Below are positions 32,473 through 55,140 of a DNA stretch of 64,000 nucleotides, piece after piece. Positions within the stretch are counted from its first letter, which is position 1. Each line of letters opens with the position of its first letter. The notes below the pieces were generated by a model. The model saw only the letters and a program-made list of their open reading frames with translations. It had not been told where the DNA came from and did not search any database. This DNA is from Planctomonas sp. JC2975 (GTDB lineage Bacteria; Actinomycetota; Actinomycetes; Actinomycetales; Microbacteriaceae): assembly GCF_012985205.1 (NCBI RefSeq), contig NZ_JABEKS010000001.1, positions 2,294,001 through 2,358,000 on the forward strand, written 5' to 3'. The position numbers were made by a program, and so were the translations under genes.

Positions 32473-32525
32473 GCCTCTATTGTCGTCGGTCGGCATGCTG
32501 CTGCCGCGCGGATACCCTCCGCGAG

Positions 32526-32767
32526 GGTGCCCCTTCCTCCGCCCGAGGGTGCCTCTTCCTCCGCCCGAAGGTGCGCGCTTCTCCGCGCGAGTGTGCGCCT
32601 TCCTCCGCGCGAGAGTGCGTCCTCCTCCGCGCGAGTGTGCGTCCTCCTCCGCGCGAGAGTGCGTCCTCCTCCGCGCGAGAGTGCGTCCTCCTCCGCGCGA
32701 GAGTGCGTCCTCCTCCGCGCGAGAGTGCGTCCTCCTCCGCGCGAGAGTGCGTCCTCCTCCGCCCGAG
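32526..32767. repeat. Tandem array of 11 x 22-bp units
   Basis: Exactly 242 bases, eleven units of 22 bp with the consensus AGTGCGTCCTCCTCCGCGCG + AG. Units 5-11 are nearly identical; units 1-4 diverge. A partial unit precedes it. The period is not a multiple of three, so the array cannot be a repeat protein. It fills the gap between the RclA-like gene and the SDR gene. The same unit is found at 53195-53709. Confidence 0.92.
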
Positions 32768-52748: not shown

Positions 52749-53174
52749 ATGCGCGAAGAGACACTGGCCGTCGGCCTGCTGTTGAGGCAATCGCACCGGT
52801 GGGCAGCGCAGATGCTCGACACCGCGCTCGCGCCTCTGCACATCGGCGGCCCGCACTTCGGCGTGCTGCTCCTGCTCGATCGGGACGGCAGTTCGACCCA
52901 CAGGGAGCTCATCGCGCTCACCGGCCGCGACAAGGCCAACATGGCGCGCACCATTGCGGATCTGGATGCTCTCGGCGCGATCGCCCGCACCGTCGACACC
53001 GCGGATCGCCGGGTGGTGCACGTCAGTCTGACTCCAGCGGGGCAGACGCTCTACGCCGAGGCGCAGAAGCTACTGGACCCGGTCAGCCGCGAGTTCGAAC
53101 GCCGCCTCGGAACGGATGGGATCGCGCAGCTCACCGCGCTGCTCCAGCGCCTGCTCCCTCCGTCCCCGCTCTGA
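52749..53174 (+). CDS. MarR family transcriptional regulator
   Basis: A 141-residue winged-helix regulator: an N-terminal dimerisation helix (VGLLLRQSHRWAAQMLD), the recognition region STHRELIALTGRDKANMARTIADLDALGAIARTVDTADRRVVHVSLTPAG, which includes the wing D-R-R, and a C-terminal dimerisation helix. AAAGGGA precedes the ATG. It is divergent from the membrane/multicopper-oxidase operon and most likely represses it. The stop is followed at once by the 22-bp repeat array. Confidence 0.9.
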   Translation: MREETLAVGLLLRQSHRWAAQMLDTALAPLHIGGPHFGVLLLLDRDGSSTHRELIALTGRDKANMARTIADLDALGAIARTVDTADRRVVHVSLTPAGQTLYAEAQKLLDPVSREFERRLGTDGIAQLTALLQRLLPPSPL

Positions 53175-53194
53175 TCGCAACACCCCCTCCCGAG

Positions 53195-53480
53195 GGTGCC
53201 CGTTCCTCCCCCCGAGGGTGCCCGTTCCTCCTCGCGAGAGTGCCCGTTCCTCCTCCCGAAAGTGCCCGTACCTCCTCCCGAAGGTGCCCGTTCCTCCTCC
53301 CGAAAGTGCCCGTTCCTCCTCCCGAAAGTGCCCGTTCTTCCTCGCGAGAGTGCCCATTGCTCCTCGCGAGAGTGCCCGTACCGCCCCCTAAAGTGCCCGT
53401 ACCGCCCTCCGAAGGTGCCTGTTGCTCCTCGCGAGAGTGCCCGTTCGTCCACCTGAAAGTGCCCGTACCTTCCCCCGAAA
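53195..53480 (+). repeat. Forward tandem array of 13 x 22-bp units
   Basis: Thirteen contiguous 22-bp units, consensus AGTGCCCGTTCCTCCTCCCG + AA/AG, with partial units on both sides. The core matches the array at 32526-32767. Since 22 is not a multiple of 3 the long open frames through it are artefacts. It begins 21 bp after the MarR stop. Confidence 0.92.
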
Positions 53481-53519
53481 GTGCGCCCCCGGGGAACAAC
53501 GCTCATGCGGCGAAAACTG

Positions 53520-53709
53520 GCACCTTCGGGAGGAGAAACACGCACCTTCGCGAGGAAGTAGACGCACCCTCGCACGGAAGAACGGGCACCCTCGCGAGGA
53601 AGAGCGGGCACCTTCGGGAGGAGGAACGGGCACCCTCGCGCGGAAGGAGACCCACCCTCGCGCGGAAGAACGGGCACTCTCGGGAGAGAGAACGGGCACT
53701 CTCGACGCA
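53520..53709 (-). repeat. Inverted tandem array of 8+ x 22-bp units
   Basis: Eight full 22-bp units and a partial, in the opposite orientation to the 53195-53480 block (plus-strand consensus GCACCCTCGCGAGGAAGAACGG). The 39-bp centre between the two blocks contains CCCCCGGGG. The forward and inverted blocks are complementary and could fold into a very large hairpin. Confidence 0.9.
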
Positions 53710-53773
53710 GAGACGCGCCCGCCCCGTGAGGGACGAGCGCGTCTTCGGAATGCTCAGCGCGATGCGCGCGGAA

Positions 53774-54622
53774 TCAATACCAGTTGTACGACTGCGAGTG
53801 CGACCAGGCACCGCAGGGAGTGCCGTACGATCCGGCGATGTAGCCGAGGCCCCACTTGATCTGGGTCGCAGCGTCGGTGGCCCAGTCAGTGCCCACGCTG
53901 GCCATCTTCGAGCCGGGGAGCGCCTGCGGGATGCCCGTCGCGCCACTCGGGTTGTAGGCCTGGTAGTTCCAGCCGGACTCGCGGTTCCACAGGCTGTTCA
54001 GGCAGGAGAACTGGTCGCCGCCCCAGCCGTAGCTCGAGGCCATGGTGGACTGCGCGTAGGAACGGGCGCCATCGGGCGTGTTGACCTGAGCCAGCGCGGC
54101 AGCGGCGGCAGCAGCCTCGGCTGCGGCCTTGGCGGCTGCCTCTGCGGCCGCCTTCTGCGCTGCGGCGACGGCTGCGTCGTGCTCGACGGCAGCCTTGTTG
54201 GCAGTGGTCACGGCGTTGTCCGCCGCGACGGTGAGCTTGTGCAGCGTGGTCGAGTCGGACGAGTAGTTGCTCTTGAGCGCTGCGATGGCACTGTCGAGCT
54301 GAGTGACGTCGGCACGACCCTGCACCTGCTGCTCGGTGATCTGAGCGACGGCGAGCGCGTCGAACGAGTCCTGCGCCGCGGTGTGCTGCAGGGCCATCGG
54401 GGCGATGGGAGAACCCTTGACCACCTCGGAGAGAGGGCCGGCTGCCTGCTTGGCGGGCTCGGCGTAAGCGTTCGAGACGACGACGGGGGTCACGACCGCG
54501 GAGACCGCGACGACGGCGGCTGCAGCGACGGTCAGGCCACGCTTGTTCTTGACGGCCTTGGCGGTGAAGTTCTGGAAGGAGTGTCTGATGGAGCCGGGGG
54601 AAATACGGTTGGAGAAGGTCAC
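53774..54622 (-). CDS. Secreted lytic transglycosylase-like protein
   Basis: A 282-residue secreted protein. A signal sequence (residues 20-45, KRGLTVAAAAVVAVSAVVTPVVVSNAYA) leads to a helical Ala-rich region with coiled-coil character, then a C-terminal transglycosylase-like domain: FSCLNSLWNRESGWNYQAYNPSGATGIPQALPGSKM, in which ESGWN supplies the catalytic Glu, and WGLGYIAGSYGTPCGAWSHSQ with a Cys pair. This is the usual resuscitation/wall-remodelling layout of Microbacteriaceae. GTG 54622 is chosen; the frame extends to 54724. A structured leader lies upstream. Confidence 0.82.
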   Translation of the reverse strand: MTFSNRISPGSIRHSFQNFTAKAVKNKRGLTVAAAAVVAVSAVVTPVVVSNAYAEPAKQAAGPLSEVVKGSPIAPMALQHTAAQDSFDALAVAQITEQQVQGRADVTQLDSAIAALKSNYSSDSTTLHKLTVAADNAVTTANKAAVEHDAAVAAAQKAAAEAAAKAAAEAAAAAAALAQVNTPDGARSYAQSTMASSYGWGGDQFSCLNSLWNRESGWNYQAYNPSGATGIPQALPGSKMASVGTDWATDAATQIKWGLGYIAGSYGTPCGAWSHSQSYNWY

Positions 54623-55140
54623 GGGGTTCCAATGCTCGGGTCTGCCCCGCGTGGTCCACCCGGTGTTGCGCGCACGCTCCACCGGGAAACGGATGCCACG
54701 CGACACTCGACGGGTCGCGTCCATCCGGGCGGGTTGGGCACCCCGGGGTCATGCTCGTCCGCTCAACCGCGTTCGGGCACGGCGGAGCAACGGCGTAGGG
54801 CTACGCCGGCAAGACACCCCGCGGATGCCACACAGCAGTCCGTCGGGTCGGGGCGTTCATCGCGCTGCGGACGCCGCCCGTGTAGGTGCGGGCGAGGTCG
54901 TAGCGTGACGACTGGAAAACGGTACCCACTCGCTCTGGGCAGGCTGTGCACAGAGGCTCCAAGGCCTCTGGGAGCGGATCCGCCGCGGAATTCCGCGGAT
55001 TTTCGACCGCAAATCAGAGTGTCCCCGATTTCGCAACCCGATGACGCGGTGCGATCTCAGACGAAAAGCTGCCCGGTCAGGCCTTTCTCCACCGTTCGAA
55101 CCGCCGGCCGGATGCGGTCCGCCGGACGGTTCGCCGAACC
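54623..55140 (-). other. Long, GC-rich structured leader and intergenic region
   Basis: This 518-bp gap has no supported gene. Read on the minus strand it contains a perfect hairpin CGGCGTAG-CC-CTACGCCG (about 54792-54809) and, nearer the gene, a GGGGTGCCCAACCCG segment with GGATGGACGCGAC/GTCGCGTGGCATCC pairs. Cell-wall hydrolase genes of actinobacteria are often controlled by c-di-AMP (ydaO) riboswitches. GGGGTGCCCAACC recalls their GGGGGACCCAACC core, but the other conserved blocks are not clear. I therefore give it only as a possibility. Confidence 0.3.

Follow-up and report, generated by a model that had tools for sequence, protein, structure and literature searches.

What could place two tandem arrays of a 22-bp unit, facing each other in opposite orientation, in the gap between two convergent genes, and what might they do there? 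In the window, that is, the whole stretch of 64,000 nucleotides analysed here, the first of these arrays (53191–53484, + strand) comprises 13 full units at 53191–53475, spaced by 22 bp in 11 steps and by 21 bp in one, followed by a fourteenth core, CGAAAGTGC, at 53476–53484, and it bears the nine-base core CGARRGTGC on the + strand. The second (53507–53704, - strand) comprises nine units of 22 bp, spaced by 22 at every step in the profile scan, with the same core on the - strand. TRF delimits the + array at 53186–53484 (period 22, 13.6 copies, 82% matches) and the - array at 53515–53704 (period 22, 8.6 copies, 76% matches). TRF, the profile scan and the sequence itself thus agree that the opposed arrays are real, and the coordinates and unit counts first given for them were right to within a few bases. 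The + array begins 16 bp past the stop codon of a + strand gene (52749–53174), whose MarR label is borne out by a match to Pfam MarR_2. The gene that faces it (53774–54724, - strand) had been labelled a transglycosylase, a label that Pfam, with no family at E 0.001, leaves unconfirmed. A GC-rich hairpin with a 15-bp stem (53711–53744, - strand), distinct from the arrays, lies between this second gene's stop codon and the - array. The units abut with no unique spacers between them, which sets the arrays apart from CRISPRs; none of the three ORFs running across the focal array has a Pfam match at E 0.001, giving no sign of a coding repeat; and at the gathering threshold neither the window nor any of 17 related loci yields an Rfam family. 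An assembly error is unlikely, because the arrays adjoin the same genes in a second species.

The original prediction envisaged a long RNA hairpin with an arm of more than 180 nt; the longest inverted match at the locus extends over 189 nt and is 76% complementary. When both transcripts of 53175–53773 were folded, as had been proposed, each proved far more stable than its dinucleotide shuffles, at -356.5 kcal/mol against -235.8 (sd 6.6; z -18.2; 100 shuffles) for the + strand and at -422.8 kcal/mol against -286.3 (sd 7.3; z -18.6) for the - strand, and no shuffle of either strand folded as well as the native sequence. Folded alone, the + array is little more stable than its shuffles (z -2.45), one of the 200 folding as well. 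The separate hairpin at 53711–53744 is of above-average stability, yet not the best when compared with 30 shuffles of its gap; among the stop-to-array gaps of at least 28 nt, 8 of 28 hold a hairpin that beats 30 shuffles. A stable hairpin 3' of a stop codon, as in an intrinsic terminator, is shown for the focal locus only, and by eye no U-tract stands directly 3' of it.

A dispersed family of 22-bp units

The focal arrays belong to a repeat family that is dispersed through the genome of which the window forms part (G000; 4.36 Mb, G+C 69%). A search for neighbouring cores one 22-bp step apart (CGARRGTGC-N13-CGARRGTGC) returned 61 forward and 79 reverse matches, 140 in all, and none when the pattern was read backwards; several dozen places bear the tandem 22-bp unit with its conserved nine-base core. 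One of these places lies in the window itself, where a second array of 11 units (32522–32763, + strand), several of them near-identical, sits between two - strand genes without an opposed partner; this array had gone unmentioned before. For genomic context, 28 loci holding 115 of the 140 matches were fetched, together with one more that carries a short array. The 33 array-bearing gaps of G000 are of every type (17 convergent, 13 tandem and 3 divergent; L112, which has no usable flanking gene call, is absent from them, and single assignments may be wrong given the simple in-house gene caller), and convergent gaps are enriched, at 17 of 33 against 8 of the 43 window gaps of at least 30 bp (Fisher p 0.003).

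Gaps with opposed arrays are the less common kind, at 6 of 33 in G000, 1 of 12 in a second species of the genus (G179) and 4 of 17 in Microbacterium lacus SDZm4; the other gaps (27 of 33, 11 of 12 and 13 of 17, respectively) hold one orientation only, and there a long hairpin is therefore impossible. Wherever opposed arrays meet, they are ordered + then -, with the cores outermost (11 of 11 pairs, two of the four from M. lacus lying in tandem gaps). Many arrays that are sense to the gene upstream begin 2–60 nt past its stop codon. A strict rule that arrays run sense to the upstream gene was a first impression, dropped when the counts in tandem gaps did not bear it out: 8 are sense and 5 antisense in G000 (n = 13), 4 and 0 in G179, and 6 and 4, with 2 mixed, in M. 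lacus. The sense bias is not significant.

Conservation within the unit is unequal. Across 124 interior units of G000, chosen by position and bracketed by exact cores, the fixed core positions agree in 93–100% and the other positions in 56–93%, while the two R positions of the core are purines in 96% and 90%. Units with a near opposed partner keep the core at 0.987 and the filling at 0.745 (53 units), and units without one at 0.974 and 0.788 (71 units); with or without a partner, core and filling differ at a Fisher p below 1e-24. That the core is better kept than the rest of the unit argues that the arrays are not decaying neutrally. The units of G179 (8) and M. lacus (14) look similar, in samples too small for the same test. 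The filling, pyrimidine-rich in G000 beside a purine-rich core, differs among the three species and is less C-rich in M. lacus and G179, with core and period unchanged. The anti-Shine-Dalgarno-like stretch CCTCCTCC, to which the original prediction had drawn attention, finds no support here and is not the conserved part, since it falls within a portion for which G179 and M. lacus have other sequence. Nor do the unit differences support subfamilies of + and - arms particular to each locus, the arms of one locus being hardly closer to each other than to those of other loci (5.81 against 6.03 differences; 12 pairs). Such subfamilies receive weak support from the energies of arm duplexes, at -131.7 kcal/mol within a locus against -122.1 between loci (p 0.014 by permutation; 8 of the 12 pairs, those of L116 and L121 having their arms in neighbouring gaps), and this better pairing favours a hairpin weakly.

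The search of related genomes that had been suggested found arrays in G179 and M. lacus and mostly none in the other genomes sampled. Among 398 genomes of the family of G000 (f1, probably Microbacteriaceae in the class Actinomycetes, judging by G+C content, genome sizes and a 69% identical protein in M. lacus), six matched the array pattern: G000 with 140 matches, G179 with 15, and four with one match each, which look like chance. With two mismatches allowed, G179 gave 67 matches against 9 for the control, and the other three species of the genus gave 11, 6 and 12 against 3, 6 and 7. M. lacus SDZm4 carries 30 matches, and a stricter pattern run over 295 genomes of its genus matched only this genome and one other, the latter once. 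Arrays stand beside the same genes as in G000 at 5 of the 12 G179 loci examined; four of these (L135, L139, L141 and L144) hold arrays, and the fifth, at the orthologue of the focal - strand gene, holds degenerate units past a hairpin. Two of the shared sites are free of arrays in the remaining three species of the genus. The preference for convergent gaps is apparent in G000 only: the gaps of G179 divide evenly (4 convergent, 4 tandem, 4 divergent of 12; p 0.43 for convergent excess), and those of M. lacus are mostly tandem (3 convergent, 12 tandem, 2 divergent of 17; p 1.0).

Two further repeats were seen in the course of this comparison. In G227 (L165), one of those three species, the gap past a dihydrolipoamide-dehydrogenase-like gene, where G000 and G179 have an array, carries another interspersed repeat, with GCCGGTTGAGCCTGTCGAAACCGG and its complement opposed to each other. 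In G179, at roughly 2600–2850 of L137, tandem copies of a repeat of about 79 bp lie near the stop of the gene orthologous to the focal - strand gene.

Palindromes bounded by the same core

The same core also bounds short palindromes in other genera and in at least one other family. The pattern CGARRGTGC-N18..48-GCACYYTCG matched 63 of 249 genomes of family f1; reversed, as a control, it matched 8 of them. Many of the single matches are intragenic and chance-like (12 of 20 loci listed; of the others, L213, L215, L216 and L219 are intergenic and atypical, L215 lying in a divergent gap). Genera g63, g5 and g34, and to a lesser extent g78 and g38, possess sets of palindromes of 52–60 bp with variable interiors. 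In a class-wide sample, a tighter pattern matched 10 of 394 genomes against 3 of 394 for the control and none of the 21 genomes of family f1 included; seven of the ten belong to one genus of family f11, with up to 9 matches each. The array pattern and one palindrome pattern matched no viral contig; a looser palindrome pattern matched 8, forming no clear family, and no plasmid matched one f11 consensus at E 0.01.

Thirty palindromes were placed in context: 17 lie in convergent gaps, 13 in tandem gaps and none in divergent gaps, a convergent excess with a Fisher p of 0.001 when the base rate is taken from the gaps of the G000 window, not from the host genomes. Three of those in f11 sit 7–20 nt from both stop codons. 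These 30 exclude one intragenic element (the first of L243) among 22 listed palindromes and include only L211, L212 and L217 of the 20 listed loci above, L218 being a duplicate of L238; one set of 20 stretches was hand-picked from the f1 matches for a palindromic look. By eye, no U-tract was seen 3' of the palindromes. Within a genome, the interiors of different copies follow a common consensus in g63 and f11 and, judged by eye, in g34. Two palindromes of G063 are about 1.07 kb apart, and their likely counterparts in G230, matched by eye, are 1.09 kb apart.

Compensatory changes were counted in the interiors, the part that the search pattern leaves unconstrained. For this purpose, the 57-base elements among the matches listed were aligned, leaving out one of G182 (g63), elements of other lengths in G004, one of G855, and those of G846, G1030 and others in the class sample. 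In g63 (13 sequences), compensatory changes occur at 10 of 25 pairs, a count reached by 1 of 500 shuffles; in g5 (7 sequences), they occur at 13 of 25 pairs, reached by 23 of 500. The covariation score of either genus was reached by none of 500 shuffles, and in g5 two of five measures were reached by 23 and 33 of 500. The f11 interiors (15 sequences) show no covariation beyond their shuffles, 337 of 500 of which reach the percentage paired.

Beyond the 9-bp core, the array unit does not match the palindrome arms. Between the two stand, by eye, relatives of the unit that carry CGARRGTGCCCGTTYC as one or two units or as small palindromes near stop codons in other genera (L199–L201, L203, L204 and L206), not always in the sense orientation. 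The single 16-mer CGARRGTGCCCGTTYC occurs in 9 of 249 genomes of family f1, including G000 and G179; outside the genus its 8 matches in 7 genomes, two of them intragenic (L202 and L205), are little above chance, given 4 matches in 4 genomes for the reversed control.

Origin and possible role of the arrays

The reading that we tentatively favour, while giving it somewhat less than an even chance, is that the focal arrays are the amplified arms of a dispersed palindromic 3'-end element. It is prompted by the agreement of arrays and palindromes in core sequence, polarity and preferred place and by the existence of intermediates, and from these four features, the core being 9 bp long, we infer the link between the two. 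The ancestral palindrome would have been a bidirectional 3'-end hairpin that stopped or insulated transcription coming in from the convergent gene on either side; the tandem arrays would then have grown as one arm or both were duplicated again and again in 22-bp steps, and at the focal locus a transcript from either side could fold into one very long stem. The function thereby assigned to the arrays is a matter of inference, and the core, nearly as well kept in G000 without a near partner (0.974) as with one (0.987), is a counterpoint to it. The conserved core and the many one-sided arrays together suggest that a protein, or the machinery by which the repeat spreads, reads the core, and that termination alone is insufficient. 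The super-terminator of the original prediction is possible at the focal locus and fails as a general rule, with opposed arrays in 6 of 33 gaps, no U-tract, and another hairpin between the - strand gene and the array; the mobile palindromic repeat proposed alongside it is well supported in its dispersed, palindrome-related part. A different route, in which a hairpin is followed by copies of its own 3' arm, took its cue from one locus of G179 and from some in Prevotella (L065 and L046, for example); the matching pattern gives no match in G000, and the route is therefore not general.

One-sided arrays, the missing U-tract, the separate hairpin and the drift of the f11 interiors bring a DNA-level binding array close to the favoured reading and make a selfish repeat a serious contender too. 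In a binding array, a putative sequence-specific protein (nucleoid-, topology- or gyrase-related) would dock on each CGARRGTGC; a step of 22 bp, or about two helical turns, would turn successive sites toward the same side of the DNA, and for the array species it would be the count of sites, more than the hairpin, that matters. Such an account, which we regard as possible and on balance unlikely, sits well with a core conserved position by position whether or not an opposed partner is near, with the predominance of one-sided arrays, with the occupation of all gap types, with a filling that varies by species while core and period stay, and with the distances between nearest cores in G000 (22 bp in 102 cases, 44 in 23 and 21 in 3). 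The M. lacus steps fit it less well, 12 being of 21 bp against 27 of 22 bp, and duplex binding has no need of the compensated palindrome interiors of g63 and g5. The other rival is a selfish extragenic repeat of REPIN- or MITE-like kind, the core of which would be an end recognised in trans by a putative transposase or recombinase, and for which gene 3' ends would be the least harmful places of insertion. A consensus common to the copies within a genome, the patchy distribution and the lack of covariation in f11 all speak for it; the arrays that adjoin the same genes in G000 and G179, and the pair of palindromes that keeps nearly the same distance in G063 and G230, speak against it, and we hold it to be distinctly unlikely. 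The terminal inverted repeats expected of a MITE are present in the 52–60 bp palindromes by construction of the search.

Two simpler accounts appear very improbable. A neutral minisatellite made by slippage is suggested by the slightly closer likeness of neighbouring units (4.28 differences, against 4.89 for distant ones), by the near-identical units of the 32522 array, and by the period-22 arrays of unrelated sequence in Prevotellaceae; it is already disfavoured by the unequal conservation of core and filling, the constant order of + then -, and the dispersal of a single unit family throughout the genome. Loading of Rho on a C-rich, rut-like 3' UTR, by way of the sense RNA past the stop codon, is suggested by the short distance from stop codon to sense array and by the pyrimidine-rich filling of G000, and seems no less remote when set against the less C-rich fillings of M. 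lacus and G179, a conserved part that is purine-rich, and a sense bias short of significance.

One may go further and picture, as a rather improbable reading, a candidate actinobacterial gene-end system in which hairpins of nearly constant length (about 57 bp), sited at gene 3' ends and often between convergent genes, carry a foot, CGARAGTGC, read by a putative conserved factor; in three species this foot would have been multiplied into docking arrays phased at 22 bp, with up to 13 or more sites per arm. How converging transcription is stopped in high-GC actinobacteria is a live question, because classical U-tract terminators are few in these bacteria. A palindromic element with a conserved foot, present at gene 3' ends in several genera and in more than one family, offers a concrete sequence for testing, and the array species show that element after amplification and provide orthologous loci at which it is naturally present, absent or expanded.

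Comparison with known repeats and terminators

Searches of the literature on the core letters, the palindromes and repeats in these bacteria left the element undescribed, a weak negative because only open-licence papers were covered. The nearest kinds are the REP/BIME elements and bidirectional terminators, and the nearest case of a tandem array is BrickBuilt. REP/BIME elements of enterobacteria are dispersed, extragenic and palindromic, lie near gene 3' ends, occur as opposed units and have no U-tract. The present family shares with them (compare the RepRanger paper, PMC12306157) dispersal, an extragenic place near gene 3' ends and the absence of a U-tract, and resembles them in part in palindromy and opposed units. 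Dispersed extragenic copies are many, palindromes occur in other genera, and opposed units are present at the focal locus and in the same 6 of 33 gaps, as against 27 that are one-sided. REP/BIME elements differ in sequence; head-to-tail arrays of 22-bp arms, often one-sided, are a feature of the array family described here, and, unlike REP/BIME, the present element keeps the same outer 9 bp across two families or more and several genera. Bidirectional intrinsic terminators between convergent genes (PMC5381666, PMC1852404) are similar in having a hairpin between two stop codons, and the compensatory changes in two genera of palindromes are a further likeness; unlike those terminators, the present element has no U-tract, has a foot conserved in sequence, and includes one-sided arrays unable to form a hairpin. 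On the favoured reading, the focal arrays are REP/BIME-like, perhaps once a bidirectional 3'-end hairpin. BrickBuilt, a minisatellite-MITE of Porphyromonas gingivalis, is an intergenic array of a 23-nt unit with 19 copies in ATCC 33277 (PMC4596501). It resembles the present family as an intergenic tandem array tied to inverted-repeat ends, and it differs in its unrelated unit and in a leader and tail bearing IS5-family-like terminal repeats, none of which was recognised here.

Tandem arrays of period 22 were also encountered in MAGs of Prevotellaceae and Tannerellaceae. They are like the focal arrays in period and, in some cases, in a CGARRGTGC core, and unlike the focal family in that, at several loci, arrays of equal period and unrelated sequence are found as well. 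In Prevotellaceae and related MAGs, such core-unrelated arrays lie within a few kilobases at L032, L050, L054, L058, L065, L092 and L093, as if the 22-bp step were general in those genomes. Because these arrays share several loci with the core-bearing ones, the shared core in Bacteroidota is at least partly a product of the search, for which the core was the key, and no common ancestry with the Prevotella arrays is claimed. Repeats of 11 bp among the Prevotella-type matches look like chance. In one Tannerellaceae MAG (L033, L079, L080 and L103), arrays of units like CGAAAGTGCAGCCGCTCGGCTG occur at several sites of the genome, with up to about 12 units.
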